64,000 nt of DNA from Nitrospirota bacterium (GTDB lineage: Bacteria > Nitrospirota > Nitrospiria > SBBL01 > JAADHI01). Location of the stretch: NCBI GenBank assembly GCA_029261135.1, contig JAJDBX010000046.1, positions 142,158 to 206,157 of the forward strand, in the 5' to 3' direction. Positions 12,680 through 39,718 of this stretch are shown piece by piece (positions within the stretch are counted from its first letter, which is position 1; each line of letters opens with the position of its first letter). A model generated the notes under the pieces. It saw only the letters and a program-made list of their open reading frames with translations, made no database searches and was not told where the DNA came from. A program made the translations under genes and the position numbers.

Positions 12680-13819
12680 TTAAGGGCTTTTCCCTTCGCC
12701 CACGATGGCGATTAAGACTTCTCCGTAGCGCTTGATCTGCCATTGGCGCATTGAGGGGATGGATTCAAAATCCTCCATCTGCTTGGGTTTCAAACGAGCG
12801 ACTTCTTTCAATACATTTCCGGTCAAGACCATGGCGGGCTCAAGTTTTTCTGTTTCTGCTTGTGTGTTTCGCCATGTTTTGAGTACCTTCAATAACTTTT
12901 CCTGCCCTGAGGTCAGCGGAGGGTTTTGGCTTTTGACTCGTCCGGGCAAAGGCTCATTCGCTTCTATTCCTTTTTGAATGGCTGCAAGCCAAAGGGGGAT
13001 GTTGTTTGAAATGGCTCTATTTATTTTGGGAAAAAGTTTGAGTAGTTCAGCTTCATCCTGAGGCATTTTTTCAGACAACAAAATCAAATGCCGAGATGAG
13101 ATGACTTTAAAAGGGGGATGGTCTCGTTCTTTGGCCAATTGGTCTCGCGCCACAATGAGTTCCCTTAAGATCAGCTGGGATTTTTCCGATAAGGCACGCG
13201 AACCCTTAATCCGAAGATAATCGTTGGGCTCAAAATCCTTGCCGCTCCAAGTGATCGCTTCCATCAATTGGCACTCTTCTTCAAGTTGATCCAGGCGTCC
13301 TGTTTTGCCAACGGCCTCGGTTAAAATTTGATAGAGTCGATAAAGGTAAACGGTGTCGAGGGCGGCATAATCGAGTTGTTCTTTAGAAAGTGGACGCAGT
13401 TTCCAATTGGCTTTTTGATATCTTTTAGAGAGTTTGACCTGAAAATAGGTTTCGATTAAATTTTGAAGTGAAAACTGACGTATTCCGGCCGCACGGGCGG
13501 CCAAAGCGGTATCGAAGATGGGCCCCACCTGAAATCCAAAATCCCGTTTTAATGAAACAACGTCGTAATCAGAACCGTGAAATATTTTTAAAATAGAGCG
13601 ATTTGAAAAAAGCGAGGCCAGCGCTTGTACCGTGTCGAGCAAGAGCGGATCGAAGATGTAATTCTTCTCATTTCCGGTAATCTGGATCAGGCTGACACTT
13701 TCTTTATAAGAAAAAAGAGAATCCCCTTCAATATCAACCCCGATATAATCACAATCCTGGAGTTCATTGATCGCCGCATCCCGTGCTTCTGATTCAGTGA
13801 TGTATTCGTATTCGGGTAT
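12680..13819 (-). CDS. rnd: Ribonuclease D, apparently starting at ATA
   Basis: A 3'-5' exoribonuclease of the DEDDy class, used for tRNA and other RNA 3'-end trimming. The catalytic acids are visible in GVDIEGD (Asp29, Glu31), HGSDYDV (Asp84) and DYAALDTVYLY (Tyr and Asp). An HRDC domain follows around LRELIVARDQLAKERD. The N-terminal 59 residues, including the first two catalytic acids, are in frame upstream of the first TTG (13642), and that stretch has no ATG, GTG or TTG. Starting at the ATA at 13817-13819, six bases after a perfect GGAGGT, gives 379 aa beginning (M)PEYEYITESEA, the expected N-terminus. The gene follows the TlpA-like gene by 14 bases. Confidence 0.88.
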   Translation of the reverse strand: MPEYEYITESEARDAAINELQDCDYIGVDIEGDSLFSYKESVSLIQITGNEKNYIFDPLLLDTVQALASLFSNRSILKIFHGSDYDVVSLKRDFGFQVGPIFDTALAARAAGIRQFSLQNLIETYFQVKLSKRYQKANWKLRPLSKEQLDYAALDTVYLYRLYQILTEAVGKTGRLDQLEEECQLMEAITWSGKDFEPNDYLRIKGSRALSEKSQLILRELIVARDQLAKERDHPPFKVISSRHLILLSEKMPQDEAELLKLFPKINRAISNNIPLWLAAIQKGIEANEPLPGRVKSQNPPLTSGQEKLLKVLKTWRNTQAETEKLEPAMVLTGNVLKEVARLKPKQMEDFESIPSMRQWQIKRYGEVLIAIVGEGKSP

Positions 13820-28633: not shown

Positions 28634-29839
28634 ATGGCAAAGGTCTTAGAAGGACCCGGGATGAGGCTCCTGTCAAAATGGGGCATGGCGGTACCACATT
28701 ATGTTGTAATAACAGATGCAACACAGCTCGACAATCTCGCTCAGGCAAACCCCTGGTTGCGCGAATCAAAACTTGTGGTAAAAGCGCATGAGGCCATTGG
28801 TGGACGAATGAAGCTGGGCTTGGTCAAGGTGGGCCTGGATTTGGCTGAGGCACAGGTTGCTGCATTCGAAATGCTGGGCAAAGAAGTGTCTGATGTGAAG
28901 ATTTCCCAAGTCATCATTTCTGAAATGGTCGCACATGATGAAGAATATTACGTTGCGGTAAAATCAACGCGCGATGGCGCAGAGCTGCTTCTGGCGAGCA
29001 TGGGCGGAATCGAAGTTGAGGCCAATTGGGAAAAAGTGCAGAAACTCGAAATTCCCTTGGGTGTCGACCCTAAGCTCTCTGAGGTGGAAGCACTTGCAAA
29101 ATCTGCAGGTTTTAATGATGATCTCTTACCCAAGGTTGCCGAATTTTCGGTCAAACTTTTTCAGTGTTATGACCAGGAAGACGGCAACTACCTTGAGATC
29201 AATCCTCTCGTGATTAAAGCATCCACGGGTGAATTGACCGCCTTGGATGCCGTGACGATGGTGGATGGTGATGCGCGATTCCGTCACCCAGATTGGAACT
29301 TTAATTTTGCCTCAGAATTTGGCCGCCCCTATTCCGACAATGAAAAAGCAATTCTGGATATTGATACACGCGTAAAAGGCTCGGTCAAATTTATTGAGAT
29401 CCCCGGTGGCGATACGGCACTTTTGCCTGCAGGCGGCGGCGCTTCAGTTTATTACTCCGACGCGGTGCTTGCACTAGGAGGGACTTTGGCCAACTATTCT
29501 GAATATTCAGGAGATCCCCCCGATTGGGCCGTTGAAGCCTTAACTGAGAAAGTCTGTTCCCTGAAAGGCATCAAGCGCATTATTGTGGGCGGGGCCATTG
29601 CGAACTTTACGAATGTAAAAAAGACTTTTTCAGGCATTATTAATGGCTTTAGAAAAGCAAAATCTGATGGAAAATTGGAAGGGGTTTCGATTTGGGTGCG
29701 CCGTGGCGGTCCATTTGAAAAAGAGGGTTTAGCTGCAATGAAAGTGCTTGAAAATGAAGGATTTGATATCCATGTTTACGATCGTTACACACCTCTGACA
29801 GATATTGTCGACTACGCAATCAAAGGAGGTGTCCAGTGA
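28634..29839 (+). CDS. aclB: ATP-citrate lyase beta (small) subunit
   Basis: A 401-aa protein of the ATP-grasp/succinyl-CoA-synthetase-beta type found in two-subunit ATP-citrate lyase. N-terminal KVLEGPGMRLLSKWGMAVPHY and VVKAHEAIGGRMKLGLVKVG build the ATP-grasp domain. YLEINPLVIKA supplies metal ligands. The C-terminal domain (LLPAGGGASVYYSD, IIVGGAIANFTNVKKTFSGI) is the citrate/CoA-side module. With AclA it cleaves citrate plus CoA plus ATP to acetyl-CoA and oxaloacetate, the diagnostic step of the reductive TCA cycle. GGAGG lies eight bases before the ATG. Its stop overlaps aclA by four bases (GTGA), so subunits are translationally coupled. Confidence 0.95.
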   Translation: MAKVLEGPGMRLLSKWGMAVPHYVVITDATQLDNLAQANPWLRESKLVVKAHEAIGGRMKLGLVKVGLDLAEAQVAAFEMLGKEVSDVKISQVIISEMVAHDEEYYVAVKSTRDGAELLLASMGGIEVEANWEKVQKLEIPLGVDPKLSEVEALAKSAGFNDDLLPKVAEFSVKLFQCYDQEDGNYLEINPLVIKASTGELTALDAVTMVDGDARFRHPDWNFNFASEFGRPYSDNEKAILDIDTRVKGSVKFIEIPGGDTALLPAGGGASVYYSDAVLALGGTLANYSEYSGDPPDWAVEALTEKVCSLKGIKRIIVGGAIANFTNVKKTFSGIINGFRKAKSDGKLEGVSIWVRRGGPFEKEGLAAMKVLENEGFDIHVYDRYTPLTDIVDYAIKGGVQ

Positions 29840-31659
29840 GCATCATTACAAATAAAGAAACCCGCGTTGTGATTCAGGGCGGCCCCGCAGGGGTGAATGC
29901 GGCCAAACGAATGGCCGAGTTCTGTCACCTGAGCCAGATCCCTTTTAACCTTTGTGCCTTTGTTTTTCCGCCAAGTGCAGGAAAAACAAACGAGATCCCT
30001 TTTGGGAGCACATTGGTTTCGGTACCCATCTTCAAAACCGTGAAGGAGGCGACGAAGGAATTCCCTGAGATCAATACCTCCTTGATTTACATTGCGCCAA
30101 ACCGTGCATTGGCAGGAACGATGGAAGCACTGGGCGATCCGAATATTCAATTGATCTCTATGATTACAGAAGGATTGCCGGAGAAAGATGCTAAAAAACT
30201 ACGGATCGAGGCAGAAAAACTCGGGAAGGTATTTAACGGGCCCTCATCCATTGGCATTATCTCCGCCGGGGAATCACGGCTGGGTGTTGTCGGGGGATCA
30301 TATGACAACCTCATGTTATGCAAACTCCATCGTCAGGGTTCATTCGGGGTGATTACAAAATCAGGTGGGCTTTCCAATGAAATTATGTGGATTTGCAGCC
30401 AGTTTGCCGACGGCATCACGACGGCCATTGGAATAGGAGGAGATACTTATCCGGGTTCAGATTTTGTGACCTATCTCGAAAAATTCGAAAAAGACCCGCA
30501 AACCAAAGTGGTCGTGATGGTCGGTGAAATGGGCGGGGATTTAGAAGAAAAAGCGGCGGCCTGGTATGCAGAAAAAGAACGTCGGATTAAACTCATCGCA
30601 GTCGTTTCCGGTTATTGCCAGGAAGAACTGCCAAAAGGGATGAAGTTCGGCCACGCGGGTGCGAAAGAAGGACTGCATGGGGAAGGATCTGCGCGAAGTA
30701 AAGCCGAGGCCTTAACAAAAGCAGGAGCCATTGTTCCGGACACCTTTGGCGGTTTAGGCCCCGTCATTAAGGCCGCTTATGACGACATTCTTGCACAGGG
30801 CGGCCTACCCCTAATTCCAGAAGAAGATATTGCCACACGACAACTTCCAAAAACCATCGAAGAAGCCATTAAAGATGGAGATGTTTTTGCTGAACCCCTG
30901 TTGAAGTCTTCCATCTGCGATGATCGCGGAGAAGAACCACTCTATAGTGGTTATGCGGCTTCTGAATTGATCGACAAGGGCTACGAAATTCCTCATGTGA
31001 TCGGCTTATTATGGGACAAGCGCCTTGTGACCCCCGTTGAGGCAGAAATTATTAAACGGATTGTGATTTTATCGGCAGATCATGGCCCCTGTGTTTCGGG
31101 CGCACTTGTCACCATTATTGCGGCTTGTGCCGGGATTTCGATGGCACAGGCGGTCGCGGCAGGCATGATCATGATTGGGCCTCGTTTTGGGGGGGCTGTG
31201 ACAGGTGCCGGTCAGTGGTTTAGTTATGCGGTCAAAAACAAGATGTCCGTTGATGACTTTTTAAGCCATATGAAGAAAAATGTCGGCCCCGTACCTGGAA
31301 TTGGTCACCGTGTGAAGTCTCTTCGAAATCCAGACAAACGAGTGAAGGCCTTGATTTCTTATGTAAAATCAACAGGAATTCCAACACCACATCTCGATTT
31401 TGCCTTATCCGTCGAGGAACGCACAACAGCGAAAAAAGATACCCTCATTTTGAATGTGGATGGAACGATGGCAGCCATTCTAGTTGATTTGGGTTTTCCT
31501 ATTGATGCATTGAACGGATTTTTTATCCTTTCCAGAACCATCGGTTTGATCGGGCACTGGATTGATCAGAAACGTGAAGAAAGTCGCCTCGTGCGTCTGT
31601 TTAGATATCTGGCCAATTACACATCGACAAAACGAAGAGAGGTACCGCCACTCGATTAA
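29836..31659 (+). CDS. aclA: ATP-citrate lyase alpha (large) subunit
   Basis: A 607-aa protein joining a succinyl-CoA-synthetase-alpha-like part (about 1-330) to a citrate-synthase-like C-terminal part (about 340-600). The phosphorylated histidine lies in KFGHAGAKEG (His273). GIISAGESRLGVVGG and ITKSGGLSNEIMW form the CoA/nucleotide side. In the C-terminal half, ADHGPCVSGALVTIIAACAG and VPGIGHRVKSLRNPDKRV hold citrate-synthase-type catalytic segments. It starts at GTG 29836, overlapping aclB. The length and fused architecture match bacterial AclA. Together with AclB it commits the organism to citrate cleavage. Confidence 0.96.
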   Translation: MSIITNKETRVVIQGGPAGVNAAKRMAEFCHLSQIPFNLCAFVFPPSAGKTNEIPFGSTLVSVPIFKTVKEATKEFPEINTSLIYIAPNRALAGTMEALGDPNIQLISMITEGLPEKDAKKLRIEAEKLGKVFNGPSSIGIISAGESRLGVVGGSYDNLMLCKLHRQGSFGVITKSGGLSNEIMWICSQFADGITTAIGIGGDTYPGSDFVTYLEKFEKDPQTKVVVMVGEMGGDLEEKAAAWYAEKERRIKLIAVVSGYCQEELPKGMKFGHAGAKEGLHGEGSARSKAEALTKAGAIVPDTFGGLGPVIKAAYDDILAQGGLPLIPEEDIATRQLPKTIEEAIKDGDVFAEPLLKSSICDDRGEEPLYSGYAASELIDKGYEIPHVIGLLWDKRLVTPVEAEIIKRIVILSADHGPCVSGALVTIIAACAGISMAQAVAAGMIMIGPRFGGAVTGAGQWFSYAVKNKMSVDDFLSHMKKNVGPVPGIGHRVKSLRNPDKRVKALISYVKSTGIPTPHLDFALSVEERTTAKKDTLILNVDGTMAAILVDLGFPIDALNGFFILSRTIGLIGHWIDQKREESRLVRLFRYLANYTSTKRREVPPLD

Positions 31660-31748
31660 CGCGTAGAGTTTTTACACCTTATTACTGAGCAAGGGGGGAA
31701 ATGAGCTGGGATCGATCCCGTCGTGTCTCCCCTCAGCTAGAATCAAAC

Positions 31749-31788
31749 TTCCTTTTTTCAAGTGATCAGGCTGTCTTGAAAAAAGGAA
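31749..31788 (+). other. Leader hairpin between aclA and aconitase gene
   Basis: TTCCTTTTTTCAAG and CTTGAAAAAAGGAA form a perfect 14-bp stem with a 12-base loop. It ends only a few bases before the aconitase ribosome site (GGAGG at 31796-31800). There is no T-run after the stem, so it is not an obvious terminator. It could be a processing or stability element, or modulate acn translation. Confidence 0.6.
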
Positions 31789-31808
31789 AATGTTTGGAGG
31801 ATTTGATT

Positions 31809-34055
31809 ATGTCTGCTAAAGCAATTGAAAATCAGTACCGGGAAATGACTGTTCGGGTTGAGGCTGCGCGACAGCGTGTCGGTCACCCCTTAACCCTGAC
31901 TGAAAAGATTCTTTTTTCTCACTTAGATGACCCGAAAGGTCAAACACTCGAACGAGGCAAGGCGCAACTGGCGCTCCGGCCGGATCGCGTCGCGATGCAG
32001 GATGCCACGGCACAGATGGCGATGTTGCAATTTATTCAAGCCAATAAAAAAGAGGCCGCGGTACCGACCACCATCCATTGTGATCATTTGATTCGTGCGC
32101 AGAGTGGCGCAAAAGAAGACATTGACCGTGCCATCTCTGAAAATAGAGAAGTCTATGATTTTCTTGCTTCCGCTGCGAAGAAGTATGGGATTGGTTTTTG
32201 GAAACCGGGAGCCGGCATTATTCATCAGGTGGTGCTTGAAAATTACGCTTATCCGGGTGGACTCATTATTGGAACTGACTCTCACACCCCGAACGGTGGT
32301 GGCCTCGGGATGCTGGCTATTGGCGTGGGCGGAGCAGACGCCGGAGAAGTGATGGCAGGTCTTGCCTGGGAAGTCCTTCAACCTAAGTTACTGGGCGTTC
32401 GTCTGACTGGTTCTCTCAGTGGTTGGGCCTCGGCCAAAGACGTCATATTATGTTTGCTCGGTCAGCTGACGACCAAAGGCGGAACCAATAAGATTGTTGA
32501 ATACTTTGGCCCTGGCGCTGAAACCATCAGTGCAACGGGTAAAGGGACGATTACCAATATGGGTGCTGAACTCGGCGCGACCACATCGGTTTTTCCTTAT
32601 GATCAAAAAATGGCCGCTTATCTCAAAATAACGGATCGTTCGGATATTGCAGCACTTGCTGATGCAAATAAAGCGATTCTGACGGCGGATCCAGAAGTCT
32701 TGGCCGATCCTGAAAGCTATTACGATGAAGTTGTTGAGATCAATCTCTCTGAATTAGAGCCTTTTGTTGTCGGACCTCATTCGCCTGACTTGGCCCGTCC
32801 CATCTCTAAGCTTGGGACTGAAGCAAAAGAGAATGGGTATCCCATGACGGTCTCGGCCGCCTTGATTGGAAGCTGCACCAATTCTTCCTACGAAGACATT
32901 ACCCGTGCGGCACATATCGCGAGCCAAGGCTTGAAAGCGGGACTAAAAGCAAAGGGAGAATTTCTGGTTTCCCCTGGCTCAGAGCGCATTTATCATACAA
33001 TGAAGCGTGATGGTTTCATCGAAATTTTCGAAGCCATGGGTGGAAAAGTCCTGGCAAATGCCTGTGGCCCTTGCATTGGACAGTGGCAACGGGAAGATAA
33101 AAAGAAAGGGGAACCCAATTCCATTATCAGCTCCTTTAATCGGAATTTTAGGGGTCGTAATGATGCCAATCCAGAAACCCTCTCTTTTTTGAGCAGCCCT
33201 GAGTTGGTGACGGTGATGGCTTTTTCTGGTGATCTTGCTTTTAATCCACTGAAGGATACCTTGACTTCTGAAGACGGCACAAAAATCAAATTCGAAGCTC
33301 CGCAAGGCCTTGAACTTCCCCCCAATGGTTTTGCATCCGGTGAAGTGGGTTTTGTGGCTCCGGATGAGGATGGTTCAGGAATTTCTGTGATCGTTGCTGA
33401 AGAGAGCGAACGGCTTCAATTGCTTTCTCCTTTTCCTAAATGGGACGGAAATGATTTAGAAGAGCTCACGGTATTACTCAAAGTTCAGGGGAAGTGCACA
33501 ACCGATCATATCTCTCCTGCCGGACCCTGGTTACGCTACCGAGGACATCTAGACCGAATCAGTGACAATATGTTCCTCGGCGCGAATAATATCTTTACGG
33601 ATACACCGGGTAAGGCCAATGATATCTTGTCCGGTGAAAAAGACCTCACCCCGTCACAAGTGGCACGGCGGTATAAGCTGAAAGGGATCGGATCCATTGT
33701 CATCGGGGACGAAAACTATGGTGAGGGCAGTTCACGAGAACACGCGGCCATGTCGCCCCGTTTTCTCGGCGTCAAAGTGGTGATTACCAAAAGCTTTGCT
33801 CGTATTCATGAGACCAACTTGAAAAAACAAGGTGTTTTAGCGCTCACCTTTGCAGACCCTTCGGATTGGGAAAAAATTGGGGAGACTGATCGCATCAGCG
33901 TGCTGGGTTTATCTCATTTGTCACCAGGGAAACCCGTCGAAGTCGTCATCCATCATGGCGAAGAAAAGATCAGCATTCAAACACAACACAGTTTAACCGA
34001 TGCACAAGTGGACTGGTTTAAGGCAGGTTCAGCCTTGAACGCCTTGAACGCTTAG
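31809..34055 (+). CDS. Aconitate hydratase (mitochondrial-type)
   Basis: Aconitase isomerises citrate and isocitrate. Started at the ATG at 31809, eight bases after GGAGG, the protein has 748 aa; a start at 31701 would add 36 residues that do not resemble aconitase. The [4Fe-4S] ligands are Cys356 (GSCTNSSYEDI), Cys419 and Cys422 (ACGPCIGQ). Other signatures are IHCDHLIRAQ, GTDSHTPNGGGLGMLAIGVGG, CTTDHISPAGPWLRYRGHLD and GDENYGEGSSREHAA. The size and the single-lobe linker resemble the mitochondrial/Bacteroidetes group rather than AcnA (about 890) or AcnB. It lies between aclBA and the fumarate reductase genes, consistent with a role in citrate supply or use in the reductive cycle. Confidence 0.95.
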   Translation: MSAKAIENQYREMTVRVEAARQRVGHPLTLTEKILFSHLDDPKGQTLERGKAQLALRPDRVAMQDATAQMAMLQFIQANKKEAAVPTTIHCDHLIRAQSGAKEDIDRAISENREVYDFLASAAKKYGIGFWKPGAGIIHQVVLENYAYPGGLIIGTDSHTPNGGGLGMLAIGVGGADAGEVMAGLAWEVLQPKLLGVRLTGSLSGWASAKDVILCLLGQLTTKGGTNKIVEYFGPGAETISATGKGTITNMGAELGATTSVFPYDQKMAAYLKITDRSDIAALADANKAILTADPEVLADPESYYDEVVEINLSELEPFVVGPHSPDLARPISKLGTEAKENGYPMTVSAALIGSCTNSSYEDITRAAHIASQGLKAGLKAKGEFLVSPGSERIYHTMKRDGFIEIFEAMGGKVLANACGPCIGQWQREDKKKGEPNSIISSFNRNFRGRNDANPETLSFLSSPELVTVMAFSGDLAFNPLKDTLTSEDGTKIKFEAPQGLELPPNGFASGEVGFVAPDEDGSGISVIVAEESERLQLLSPFPKWDGNDLEELTVLLKVQGKCTTDHISPAGPWLRYRGHLDRISDNMFLGANNIFTDTPGKANDILSGEKDLTPSQVARRYKLKGIGSIVIGDENYGEGSSREHAAMSPRFLGVKVVITKSFARIHETNLKKQGVLALTFADPSDWEKIGETDRISVLGLSHLSPGKPVEVVIHHGEEKISIQTQHSLTDAQVDWFKAGSALNALNA

Positions 34056-34091
34056 TGTTGTAAAAAGACGTGACTGAACAATATCGCACTC

Positions 34092-34125
34092 GAGTAAGGT
34101 GCTCCTTTCCAGGCAGCACCTTCTC
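34092..34125 (+). other. Intercistronic hairpin between acn and frdB1
   Basis: AAGGTGCT and AGCACCTT pair perfectly (8 bp, 11-base loop), with a further GAG/CTC pair after one bulge. No T-run follows, so read-through into frdB1 is likely, perhaps with mRNA processing or partial attenuation. Confidence 0.5.
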
Positions 34126-34141
34126 AATTTAAGGTAAGAGA

Positions 34142-34819
34142 TTGAATCAAAAGGAAAACCCAAAAGACATTACAGTCGAAATTTCGGGAAAGAAATATCA
34201 GGTGCCCGAAGGGCTGACCATGTTGCAGGCGATGTGGCATTCCGGTCTTGAATTGACTCGGGGTGTGGGCTGCCTGGGCGGGATTTGCGGGGCTTGCCCG
34301 GCAAAGTATCGCACGAAAGAGGATACAAAAATTAAAACCGCTTTGGCCTGTCAAACCCAGGTTGAAGATGGGATGGCCTTCTCCTTAATTGCTTCTTATT
34401 ATCCCAACCGGAAGGTGACCTATCAGTTCCCGGAGATGAAAGATCCCAAACAAGATCTTTTTCGACATTACCCGGAAGCTGCCCTTTGCCGGAATTGTGA
34501 TGCCTGCACGGTGGCCTGCCCGAAAGGGATTGATGTGAGAACCGGGGTATGGAAAGCCGTTTTTGGTGATTTCAAAGAAGGGGCTGAGCTTTTTCTTTCT
34601 TGTGTGATGTGTAGCCTTTGTGTGCCCGTCTGTATCGCGGATATTGCGCCGAACCAAGTGGGACTTTTTATGCGACGTGCCCAAGGCATCTTTTTTGAAA
34701 AGAAATCGCCACAACTTGCGAATCGCGTTGATGAGATCGCAGATGGAAAGTACAATGCAGAATGGGAAAATCTCTTAAGTTTACCGGATGATGCCATTCA
34801 GGTTGAGCCCATCTCTTGA
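34142..34819 (+). CDS. Fumarate reductase/succinate dehydrogenase-type iron-sulfur protein 1
   Basis: A 225-aa protein with an N-terminal ferredoxin fold binding a [2Fe-2S] centre (Cys44, 49, 52, 70; CLGGICGAC and ALACQT). Two cysteine clusters follow: CRNCDACTVACPKG (116-126) and CVMCSLCVPVC (154-164). This is the SdhB/FrdB layout, but the second cluster motif reads CxxCxxCxxxC, as for a [4Fe-4S] rather than the usual [3Fe-4S] centre. It would pass electrons to FrdA. The start is TTG 34142 after AAGGTAAGAG. A diverged paralog follows directly, and no SdhC/D-type membrane anchor is present. Confidence 0.85.
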   Translation: MNQKENPKDITVEISGKKYQVPEGLTMLQAMWHSGLELTRGVGCLGGICGACPAKYRTKEDTKIKTALACQTQVEDGMAFSLIASYYPNRKVTYQFPEMKDPKQDLFRHYPEAALCRNCDACTVACPKGIDVRTGVWKAVFGDFKEGAELFLSCVMCSLCVPVCIADIAPNQVGLFMRRAQGIFFEKKSPQLANRVDEIADGKYNAEWENLLSLPDDAIQVEPIS

Positions 34820-34842
34820 ACGGGGCGTTTGATATTGAACCC

Positions 34843-34849
34843 AAAGGAG
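34843..34849 (+). promoter_or_regulatory. Ribosome-binding site pointing to an ATT start of frdB2
   Basis: AAAGGAG lies seven bases before an in-frame ATT (34857-34859). No ATG, GTG or TTG occurs in this frame between the preceding stop (34836-34838) and the internal ATG at 34932. That ATG lies well inside the conserved ferredoxin domain. Confidence 0.7.
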
Positions 34850-34856
34850 CTTAGCG

Positions 34857-35507
34857 ATTTCCAGCCCAATCACGATTACAATCGATGGGGAAAAACACCC
34901 CGTTCCACTTGGGATTACCGTCATTCAGGCCATGTGGCATCTTGGCCGTTCGATGACGCGGGGTGTGGGCTGTCTTGGCGGGGCTTGTGGCACTTGCACA
35001 ATCACAACCCGCTTCCCCGATCAAATGATTCCAAAAACAGCACTCGCCTGTCAAACAATGGTTTCAGAGGGAATGAATATTACCTTTCTTTCTTCCGACC
35101 CTTCAAAAAAAACAATCTCACCCCTACCCACTGAATCGCCATCCCGAGAAACCCTGTTCCAATATTATCCTGAAACAAGACGCTGCGTTTCCTGTCAAGC
35201 CTGTTCTACGGCTTGTCCACAAGGGATTGACGTGATGGTGGCTGTACGCGAAGCCATTGTTGGTGATCTCTCAGCCGTGGCAGAGCGATTTACAAGCTGC
35301 GTCATGTGTGGGCTTTGCGCCGCAGTTTGTGAAACCAAAATTCGGCCTCACCGTATGGGTTTGTATGCACGCCGCTTGACAGGTGCTTTTTATCCCAAAG
35401 AAGCCAGTGATTTGGTCAATCGTATCGAAGAGATTCATTCAGGTCGTTTTGATCCAGAATGGGCCCGTGTGATGCAACCTGATGATGAAACGGCTGTAAA
35501 GACATAG
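34857..35507 (+). CDS. Fumarate reductase-type iron-sulfur protein 2, apparently starting at ATT
   Basis: From ATT 34857 the protein has 216 aa and begins (M)SSPITITIDGEKHPVPLGIT, aligning residue by residue with the N-terminus of the preceding paralog (DITVEISGKKYQVPEGLT). The [2Fe-2S] ligands (CLGGACGTC, ALACQT) and clusters CVSCQACSTACPQG and CVMCGLCAAVC are all kept. Starting at the first ATG (34932) would remove the first 25 residues of the ferredoxin fold. It sits 37 bases after frdB1 and 16 bases before frdA. It is probably a second electron-transfer subunit of the same fumarate reductase, perhaps linking a different donor. Confidence 0.85.
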   Translation: MSSPITITIDGEKHPVPLGITVIQAMWHLGRSMTRGVGCLGGACGTCTITTRFPDQMIPKTALACQTMVSEGMNITFLSSDPSKKTISPLPTESPSRETLFQYYPETRRCVSCQACSTACPQGIDVMVAVREAIVGDLSAVAERFTSCVMCGLCAAVCETKIRPHRMGLYARRLTGAFYPKEASDLVNRIEEIHSGRFDPEWARVMQPDDETAVKT

Positions 35508-35523
35508 ATAGAGGAAAGGATTG

Positions 35524-37110
35524 ATGAGTGATATAGAATCTTCAAAATCTTTGGTCAATGACGCGCGCCCCTTACGGGTCGATCAAGAAATGGCGCGTCT
35601 TTCTCAGGATGAAAAAAGCTTACTGGTTCATCGGTTTCATCCCGATTATAAAAAAGAAGCCTATGGCACCTTGCAAGTGGGACCCAATAAAGGTCAAACA
35701 TCTGTCCATGAAGTCATCCGCTTGTTAGAGGGAAAAAGTCAGCTGGCTACAAAAACGGTTTCCCTTACGCCAACACACGAAGTAGATGTTTTGATTGTCG
35801 GTGGTGGAGGTGCAGGTTCGACCGCAGCACTGGCTGCAAAAGCAGCGGGGTCAAAGGTGCTGATGGCGACGAAGCTGAGATTGGGTGATTCTAATACGGT
35901 CATGGCCGAAGGCGGCATGCAAGTTGCCGTTTCTCCTGAAGATTCTCCTGTGCGGCATTTTGTCGATTCTTTTAAAGGCGGGCAGATGGCGAATGACCGC
36001 ACCTTGCTTAAAACCTTGGTGGAGGAAGGCCCTTCGGTCGCGAAATGGCTCATCGATAACGGTGTTTTGTTTGATCGTGAAGAAGATGGCAACTTAAGCA
36101 TTCGATCTGGCGGAGGAAGCAGCCTCCCCCGACTGCTACGCTGTAAAGATTATACCGGTCTTGAGTTGATGCGTGTTTTAAAAGACTGCGTGCTCAACGA
36201 AGAAATCGAGGTACTCGAATTCAGTCCTGTACTTGAACTACTCACAGACGGTGAAGGAACCTGTACCGGCGCCGTTTTAAAAAATTTAGATACGGATCAA
36301 CTGATTATTGTACAGGCCAAAACGGTGATTTTGTCAACGGGCGGCATTGGCCGTTTACATATCCAAGGTTTTCCAACGAGCAATCACTATGGTGCCACCG
36401 GAGATGCCCTTTCGATGGCCTATCGTGCGGGTGCTGAACTGACCCTGCAAGATACCTTTCAATATCATCCAACCGGTTCTGTTTATCCAGAGGCGATGGC
36501 GGGTTTGTTAGTCACCGAGGCGATTCGCTCAGTGGGTGCTCACCTGTTAAATGTAAAAGGAGAACGTTTTGTTTTTGAGCTGGAAACCCGAGATGCCGTA
36601 GCCTCAGCCATCATTCGTGAATGTCAGGAAGGCCGTGGGGTTGAAACCCCAGCCGGGCGCAAAGGGGTCTGGCTTGATATGCCCCTGGTTGATGTCCTGC
36701 ATGGCGAAGGCACATTGCGTGAGCGTTTTCCGAATATGCATCGGCAATTTTCAAAATACCAAATTGATATTGAAAAAGAACCTGTGCTTATTTATCCGAC
36801 CCTTCATTATCAAAATGGTGGCATTAAAATTGATGTGGATGGCGAATCCACCCTGAAAAATCTTTATGTCGCGGGTGAAGCCTCTGGCGGGATTCATGGA
36901 CGGAATCGTTTGATGGGAAATTCCCTGCTCGATATCATTGTCTATGGCAAAAGAGCGGGTAAAGCCGCTTCAAAAAGAGCAACGACATCGTTATCAAAAT
37001 CTTTGTCCCTCAAGCATTTGGAGTCTTTTCAAGCAGAACAAAAAGCGGCGGGGATTGTTCCAGAAGTTCTGTCTCCCATGCTTTTTCCAGATTATGTCAA
37101 TAAAGACTGA
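35524..37110 (+). CDS. Fumarate reductase/succinate dehydrogenase flavoprotein subunit, non-covalent FAD type
   Basis: A 528-aa flavoprotein with the FAD-binding VDVLIVGGGGAGSTAALAA, the active-site YHPTG region, and the late GGIHGRNRLMGNSLLDIIVYG that holds the catalytic arginine. The histidine that covalently binds FAD in SdhA/FrdA is replaced: the segment reads GDSNTVMAEGG, with Asn124 in its place. FAD should therefore be non-covalent, as in soluble fumarate reductases and L-aspartate oxidase. An extra N-terminal region (about 1-75) precedes the FAD domain. With two Fe-S subunits and no membrane anchors, it probably works as a soluble fumarate reductase in the reductive cycle. The ATG after AGGAAAGG is preferred over TTG one codon earlier. 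Confidence 0.88.
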   Translation: MSDIESSKSLVNDARPLRVDQEMARLSQDEKSLLVHRFHPDYKKEAYGTLQVGPNKGQTSVHEVIRLLEGKSQLATKTVSLTPTHEVDVLIVGGGGAGSTAALAAKAAGSKVLMATKLRLGDSNTVMAEGGMQVAVSPEDSPVRHFVDSFKGGQMANDRTLLKTLVEEGPSVAKWLIDNGVLFDREEDGNLSIRSGGGSSLPRLLRCKDYTGLELMRVLKDCVLNEEIEVLEFSPVLELLTDGEGTCTGAVLKNLDTDQLIIVQAKTVILSTGGIGRLHIQGFPTSNHYGATGDALSMAYRAGAELTLQDTFQYHPTGSVYPEAMAGLLVTEAIRSVGAHLLNVKGERFVFELETRDAVASAIIRECQEGRGVETPAGRKGVWLDMPLVDVLHGEGTLRERFPNMHRQFSKYQIDIEKEPVLIYPTLHYQNGGIKIDVDGESTLKNLYVAGEASGGIHGRNRLMGNSLLDIIVYGKRAGKAASKRATTSLSKSLSLKHLESFQAEQKAAGIVPEVLSPMLFPDYVNKD

Positions 37111-37172
37111 TCGCTGGATCTTTTATGTTTAAACAGGATTGATTGCAAGTCAAACTTTTTGTGGAGGGTAAA

Positions 37173-37601
37173 ATGAAATTTTTGAGTGTGATAATCATGA
37201 TGAGTCATTTGTTTTTAGCACATGGGATTGCTTCTGCAGAGATGGCCAGAACGGCATCAAAAGTTGACGCATCCGTGTACATCATTTCCCCGGCCAATGG
37301 TGAAATCGTTTCCAAAACCTTTACCATCAAGTTTGGATTGCGAGGCATGGGGGTCGCTCCCGCTGGAACGGACAAAGCCGGAACAGGGCACCACCATCTT
37401 TTAATTGATGGCAAAACCCTTCCTCCTTTTGATAAACCGATGGGAAAAGAGGGTATCAAACATTTTGGGGGTGGACAAACAGAGACGGTCATGATGCTTG
37501 GTCCGGGCAAACACACCTTACAACTTGTTTTAGGCGATAAATCTCACGTGCCTCATCAACCGCCCCTTGTTTCAAAACAAATTACGGTCATTGTGAAATA
37601 A
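37173..37601 (+). CDS. Secreted DUF4399 family protein
   Basis: A 142-aa protein when started at MKFLSV, four bases after GGAGGG. It has a signal peptide (about residues 1-21, ending AHGIASA) and a DUF4399 domain: VYIISPANGEIVSKTF, then GTGHHHLLIDGKTLP, GGGQTETVMMLGPGKHTLQL and late HVPHQ. The HHH cluster and later histidines could bind metal. It lies inside the reductive TCA operon between frdA and sucC, where a periplasmic protein is unexpected. It is probably an insertion riding along rather than a pathway enzyme. Confidence 0.85.
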   Translation: MKFLSVIIMMSHLFLAHGIASAEMARTASKVDASVYIISPANGEIVSKTFTIKFGLRGMGVAPAGTDKAGTGHHHLLIDGKTLPPFDKPMGKEGIKHFGGGQTETVMMLGPGKHTLQLVLGDKSHVPHQPPLVSKQITVIVK

Positions 37602-37653
37602 TTGCTCTGAGTCCGTTTTTAAGTCCGTATAAAAAAAGAAGGATACTTATAAG

Positions 37654-38814
37654 ATGAATATTCATGAATACCAGGCAAAAGCCCTATTCCGAAAATATCA
37701 GATTCCTGTTCCCAATGGTGATGTGGCCTTCTCTCCGGAAGAAGCGGCTTCCGTGGCCAAAACGCTGGAAACACCGATATGTGTCGTCAAGGCTCAAATT
37801 CATGCGGGGGGGCGCGGCAAGGCCGGTGGCGTACTTTTGGCCAGAACGAGGGAAGAAGTCATCCCGCTTGCGAAAGAAATCCTTGGGAAAATCCTCGTCA
37901 CACCACAAACGGGCCCTGAAGGCAAAGAAGTCAAAAAACTTCTGATTGAAGAAGGGGCGGATATTCAAAATGAACTCTATTTAAGCCTGGTCGCCGACCG
38001 GGGCAGTGGCTCGGTCGTGGTGATCGCAAGTACGGAAGGAGGGATGGAAATTGAAGAGGTTGCGGAAGCAACACCTGAAAAAATTATCCGCCTTTCAATC
38101 GATCCTGCTTTTGGTTTTCAGGCATACGAGGGCAGATCTATCGCTTTTAAAATGGGGCTTCCCAAAGAAGTGATCGGTCAATTTGTCAAATTGCTTGGCA
38201 ATCTATATCGACTGTTTATCGAAAAAGGAGCCATGCAGATCGAGATCAACCCCTTAATCATTACGGGAGACAATCGTTTAATCGCACTGGATGCCAAGGT
38301 GGGATTTGATGACAGTGCGCTTTTCAAAAACCCAGATGTGAGTAAATTGCGTGATTTGGATGAAGAAGACGTACTCGAAACCCGAGCGGCTGAATTTGGC
38401 CTTAACTATATCAAACTGGATGGAAAAATTGGTTGCATGGTCAATGGCGCAGGCCTTGCGATGTCAACGATGGATGTCATCAAACTCGCCGGTTCAGAAC
38501 CCGCCAACTTTTTAGATGTCGGGGGCGGTGCGTCGAAAGAGACAGTCAAACAGGCATTTCAGATCTTATTGGACGACCCGAATGTGAAAGGGGTTTTAGT
38601 CAACATTTTCGGGGGCATTGTGCGCTGTGAGCGCATCGCAGGGGGTATTATTGATGCCGCCAAAGAGGTCTCTTTAAATGTGCCGCTGGTTGTGCGTTTG
38701 GAAGGGACGAATGCGACCGAAGCGAAAACTCTGCTGGCGGATTCTGATATTGAATTGATTGTTGCGGATACGCTATGGGATGGGGCGCAGAAGATTGTTG
38801 CCCAGGTGAGCTAA
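37654..38814 (+). CDS. sucC: Succinyl-CoA synthetase beta subunit (ADP-forming type)
   Basis: A 386-aa ATP-grasp protein of normal length. It starts [20 protein letters not shown], with [14 protein letters not shown] for nucleotide binding, [13 protein letters not shown] for metal ligands and [19 protein letters not shown] in the C-terminal domain. It forms the beta half of the enzyme that makes succinyl-CoA from succinate, CoA and ATP, feeding 2-oxoglutarate synthesis in the reductive direction. AGAAGGA precedes the ATG. It is followed by sucD after 31 bases. Confidence 0.96.
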
Positions 38815-38845
38815 GCCATTTATGAGAACGAAGTAAGGAGTTCCA

Positions 38846-39718
38846 ATGTCTATTTTAGTGAATAAAAATACACGCGTCCTGGTTCAGGGTATTACGGGAA
38901 AAGAAGGTTCTTATCATGCTTCTGCCTGTAAGGAATATGGCACCCAAGTGATGGCCGGCGTGACCCCGGGTAAAGGGGGGAGTGATTTTGAGGGCATCCC
39001 TGTTTTCAATACGGTTGAAGCGGCTGTGATTGAAACGGCTGCGGATGTCGCGCTTATTTTTGTGCCGCCCCCCTTTGCCGCCGATGCCATTATGGAATCT
39101 GCCGAAGCCGCAGTTCCGCTGATTATTTGTATTACGGAAGGGATTCCAGTCATGGATATGATGCGAGTAAAACGCTTTTTGGCTGAAAAGCCCGTTCGCC
39201 TCATTGGCCCCAACTGTCCCGGCATTATTACGCCAGGTGAATGTAAAATTGGGATTATGCCCGGCTTTATTCATAAAAAAGGAAACGTCGGCGTTGTCTC
39301 CAGAAGTGGCACCTTAACTTACGAAGCCGTCTTGCAACTGACTGAGCGAGGCATCGGCCAATCGACCTGTATCGGGATTGGTGGCGATCCCGTAAATGGC
39401 ACCAACTTCATTGATGTGCTCGAAATGTTTGAAAAGGATGGCGAAACCGAAGCGATTGTAATGATTGGAGAAATCGGTGGCGATGCAGAAGAGGCCGCGG
39501 CTGTTTTTATCCAAAAAAATGTGAGCAAACCCGTAGTGGCTTTTATTGCAGGCATGACGGCCCCTCCGGGTCGAAGAATGGGGCATGCCGGTGCGATTAT
39601 CTCCGGCGGAAAAGGGACTGCGGCAGATAAGATGGCGGCACTGGAATCCGCAGGCGTCACCGTAGTAAAAAACCCGGCACTGATTGGGGAAGCGATCGAA
39701 AAATGTTTCGCTAAATAA
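38846..39718 (+). CDS. sucD: Succinyl-CoA synthetase alpha subunit
   Basis: A 290-aa protein with the CoA-binding Rossmann start [33 protein letters not shown], and the phospho-histidine His247 in [16 protein letters not shown]. It pairs with SucC directly upstream. AAGGAG lies seven bases before the ATG. The order sucC-sucD and the length are standard. Here it closes the set of carbon-cycle genes on this strand. Confidence 0.96.

Follow-up and report, generated by a model that had tools for sequence, protein, structure and literature searches.

A conserved ATT codon as the most likely start of an iron-sulfur subunit gene, with weak start codons in a few other genes, in a Nitrospirota lineage

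Few conserved AUU-type start codons have been documented. In E. coli, infC and pcnB start with AUU (PMC9410913). According to the title of Binns and Masters (2002), a paper cited in both PMC9410913 and PMC13009471, translation of pcnB is limited by its AUU. When S. aureus reporters were assayed in poor medium, AUU and AUA combined with a strong Shine-Dalgarno (SD) sequence gave ~10% of the AUG output (PMC13009471). Switches from AUG to AUU in other bacteria number 1 of 61,358, and annotation may undercount them (PMC5622118). Gene callers limited to ATG, GTG, and TTG truncate or miss such genes.

The window, the whole stretch of 64,000 nucleotides analyzed here, comes from a Nitrospirota assembly of 3.22 Mb in 77 contigs (G000). 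Its positions 28634-39718 hold a cluster resembling a reductive TCA operon. The features around the start site in question are as follows.
28634-39718, members of the reductive-TCA-like cluster: a citryl-CoA/succinyl-CoA synthetase-like pair, an aconitase-like protein, fumarate-reductase-like subunits, and a succinyl-CoA ligase-like pair
34142..34819, plus strand, frdB1, the paralog of frdB2, with a TTG start (ATG in relatives); internal control
34843..34849, plus strand, SD sequence AAAGGAG of frdB2, followed by seven bases (CTTAGCG) and then ATT
34857..34859, plus strand, ATT start codon of frdB2, at a column of ATT in relatives
34857..35507, plus strand, frdB2, 216 aa from ATT, the Fe-S subunit (2Fe-2S plus 4Fe-4S; Pfam Fer2_4 and Fer4_9) of a fumarate-reductase-like complex
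35524..37110, plus strand, frdA-like flavoprotein subunit, with a standard start in 8 of 8 family genomes; internal control

The frdB2 frame opens after TGA at 34836-34838 and continues with ACC CAA AGG AGC TTA GCG ATT TCC AGC CCA ATC ACG ATT ACA ATC GAT. The preliminary description had reported AAAGGAG, a gap of seven bases and ATT at 34857, with no standard start before the internal ATG. Direct reading confirmed this: between the TGA and the ATG at 34932 (codon 26), the frame contains no ATG, GTG, or TTG. The computed SD stacking energy is -11.6 kcal/mol, with a spacing of 6 in the register used, and the SD sequence lies at a normal distance from ATT. The N-terminal ferredoxin part had also been placed upstream of the internal ATG and described as shared with the paralog, and this holds. 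When translation starts at ATT, the Fer2_4 (2Fe-2S) match (E 2.1e-9) begins at residue 3, and FrdB1, 45% identical, aligns from residue 4. The product from ATG 34932 would miss about one-third of the 2Fe-2S domain. Among curated families, the dhsB and TfrB matches of FrdB2 are far below the cut-off, and the best match of the flavoprotein of the same operon is TfrA at 358 of 718 bits. Because these matches are below the cut-off, the label "fumarate-reductase-like" for frdB2 is drawn from the operon context only.

Orthologs were compared in eight genomes of the family (G000 to G007), of which G001 to G004 are congeners of G000, and in 18 from the order. Genus and family labels from the search tool, not a tree, define the groups. 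Relatives of the source genome include Nitrospirota bacterium OFTM211, OFTM249, and OFTM308, and Candidatus Manganitrophus is one family away. ATT occupies the column of the frdB2 start in seven of the eight family genomes (G000 to G005 and G007), that is, in 4/4 sampled congeners and 2/3 other family members, and the orthologs are 60-73% identical. The sole exception is G006, with ATG. Manganitrophus orthologs have mostly TTG ATG, slightly upstream. An error of sequencing or assembly that turned ATG into ATT could be imagined in an assembly as fragmented as this one (77 contigs), but the identical ATT in six other genomes makes it next to impossible, and the orthologs already refute it.

Initiation at another codon is very improbable, whether at the nearby upstream TTG that some species have, at the internal ATG, or at a different near-cognate codon. 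TTG is found two codons upstream of ATT in G002 and G004, but there it abuts the SD sequence. It is farther upstream in G003 and G005, and G005 also has TTG directly after ATT. No standard start exists anywhere between the stop and ATT in G000, G001, and G007, and initiation at the internal ATG would delete part of the 2Fe-2S domain. An out-of-frame upstream TTG combined with a frameshift was considered as well, and was not seen in the frdB2 orthologs of relatives.

The shared ATT column goes beyond what chance would give: pairwise identity among frdB2 sequences is 1.0 at start positions 1 and 2, 0.33 (close to random) in the six preceding bases, and 0.52 in the SD block. For frdB2 and for two of the genes described below, cdf and rsfS, identity is 1.0 at positions 1 and 2 but 0.33-0.56 over the six preceding bases, and thus homology begins at the start codon. 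Codon 2 after the weak starts is mostly Ser, Pro, or Thr, typical after a removable Met. In each of the eight family genomes, the internal controls, frdB1 and frdA, start with ATG, GTG, or TTG. Where it could be measured, the distance to frdB1 rules out an overlap of the two genes as the reason for ATT conservation: the intergenic gaps differ, ranging from 23 to 58 nt in six genomes (all but G002 and G003). The ATT of frdB2 is most likely a genuine conserved AUU start, a known kind of start codon in new genes. In principle, the column of ATT, ATC, or ATA could instead represent a conserved Ile codon, with a different non-standard start before it.

A second weak start in the window, the ATA of rnd, had been claimed earlier.
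12680..13819, minus strand, rnd (ribonuclease D) coding region from ATA, with a match to NCBIfam TIGR01388
13817..13819, minus strand, ATA start codon of rnd, with the SD sequence GGAGGT upstream at normal spacing

The ATA start stands up to inspection, with GGAGGT at normal spacing and no standard start in the frame before codon 60. The TIGR01388 match (E 7.6e-58; 196.5 of 298.95 bits, below the curated cut-off) places profile position 2 on query residue 6. The start column of rnd in six genomes reads ATA, ATC, ATT, ATC, ATT, and ATT, with no standard start nearby. G001 has ATG beside the start column, the start in G006 is probably TTG, and outgroup rnd genes start mostly with ATG or GTG.

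The proposed survey for further weak-start genes did find more. It covered 1.83 Mb with 1,440 predicted genes, ~57% of the source genome, and required coding signal well ahead of every standard start, plus an SD-spaced ATT, ATC, or ATA. It undercounts, since only genes with a coding signal well upstream of the first standard start are detected. About six of the 1,440 genes need such a start: frdB2, rnd, cdf, rsfS, an HlyD-like gene, and possibly a heme-oxygenase-like gene. The names of the cdf transporter and of the last two genes come from reading their translations.

The gene cdf, for a CDF-type cation transporter (C65), starts with ATT, and ATT or ATC is found in six genomes. Four of the genomes lack a usable standard start between the stop and the conserved N-terminus. 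Outgroups have ATG near the conserved region, but the alignment does not extend to the extreme N-terminus. The ribosome-silencing factor gene rsfS (C45; ATT) matches PF02410 and apparently has an ATT start in 16 of the 18 order genomes, nine of these having no in-frame upstream standard start at all. In G009 an ATG is found two codons upstream, G003 is ambiguous, and one Nitrospira has GTG. The SD sequence of rsfS is weaker than the AAAGGAG of frdB2. The ATT of the HlyD/MacA-like membrane fusion protein gene (G000 C10:51721-52896) is private to the source species, and its relatives use standard starts. The heme-oxygenase/TenA-like gene (G000 C41:324834-325556) has ATT as its only plausible start, overlapping the upstream stop (TATTAA). 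Because of this overlap with the stop of the upstream gene, conservation of that ATT is not evidence. The weak-start pattern recurs independently at rnd, cdf, and rsfS. The distribution of codons suggests that the weak start of rsfS is old and order-wide, and that frdB2, rnd, and cdf acquired theirs in the clade formed by genera g1 and g2 (seven genomes: G000 to G005 and G007).

A per-codon test over all codons detected no excess of SD-spaced ATT, ATC, or ATA over other codons, indicating a handful of genes and not a general habit. Ab initio start models were unable to call the weak starts on their own. Due to these two results, the case rests on comparison between genomes. A 400 kb sample of Manganitrophus, selected to cover infC as well as the frd genes, contained one clear case, the ATC of infC, and one doubtful case.

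Relaxed start selection throughout the lineage, caused by altered discrimination by IF3, had been raised as an explanation and is quite improbable. In its favor, infC lost ATC in the same clade where frdB2, rnd, and cdf gained ATT, ATC, or ATA, but this is one event on one branch. General relaxation is contradicted by the small number of genes (~6/1,440), the lack of enrichment of SD-spaced codons, and the canonical initiator tRNA, which has the usual CAU anticodon. Examination of infC for an altered IF3 revealed a normal sequence, which aligns well with solved IF3 and contains the FRGREM and EGRNM motifs.

The unexpected outcome was the start codon of infC itself. In the seven g1 and g2 genomes it is ATG and the protein is extended at its N-terminus; it is ATC in all 11 other order genomes (every readable one) and in a Nitrospira. 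An AUU-type start as a sign of infC autoregulation was accordingly not found in the source organism, and autoregulation was presumably lost along with the ATC start. It is possible, though rather doubtful, that on one branch infC gave up its ancestral ATC while frdB2, rnd, and cdf acquired ATT, ATC, or ATA beside the older ATT of rsfS, which would amount to a rewiring of the genes that IF3 controls through their start codons. As a single coincidence on a single branch, the correlation is no proof of cause; it is the part most worth testing.

A real ATT start with no regulatory role, tolerated and kept by drift or shared ancestry, is unlikely. Only eight species are in the family sample, and some of the conservation is explained by inheritance alone. 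New changes to ATT occur, as indicated by the HlyD-like gene, which has ATT in the source species and standard starts in relatives. However, 27-40% of the protein sequence differs between orthologs, and ATG has not returned to the rnd and cdf columns, whose third position can be T, C, or A. Elsewhere, AUG also very rarely changes to AUU (PMC5622118).

Sequence comparison suggests instead that the weak start is maintained to limit protein output and is not an error. Low expression is more probable than a relaxed choice of starts, given that specific genes keep the weak codon and their operon neighbors use standard starts. The suggestion of deliberate low expression in the preliminary description therefore fares better than relaxation, and its regulatory part is our extrapolation.

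Decoding of an ATT start by fMet-tRNA follows from known biology. For frdB2, we infer fMet initiation, reduced output, and sensitivity to IF3. Ordinary fMet-tRNA(CAU) would read the ATT at 34857 despite a mismatch at the third position, with the strong SD sequence as an aid. The weak codon would limit FrdB2 synthesis relative to FrdB1 and FrdA of the same operon, and probably makes translation sensitive to IF3 activity. In all, it is likely that frdB2 is translated from ATT 34857, that the weak codon is maintained to limit FrdB2 against FrdB1 and FrdA, probably in an IF3-sensitive manner, and that frdB2 is one of a small set of such genes in the lineage.

Several conserved cases together with an oppositely switched infC make this lineage a natural test of selection for weak or IF3-controlled translation. 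The order-wide ATT of rsfS, if true, would tie start-codon control to ribosome silencing.

Like infC and pcnB of E. coli, the genes described here have an AUU start in particular chromosomal genes. They are other genes, however, and infC of the source lineage itself has ATG. The cvfC1 (AUU), ccpN (AUA), and infC (AUA) genes of S. aureus similarly combine conserved non-canonical starts with a strong SD sequence (PMC13009471). Those genes are unrelated, and reduced output was measured there. S. aureus infC keeps its weak start, but infC of the source clade does not. A further parallel is the ATC of infC in Manganitrophus and Nitrospira, which belongs to the same codon class and occurs in the same order and class of bacteria, but which was lost in the clade of the source genome.
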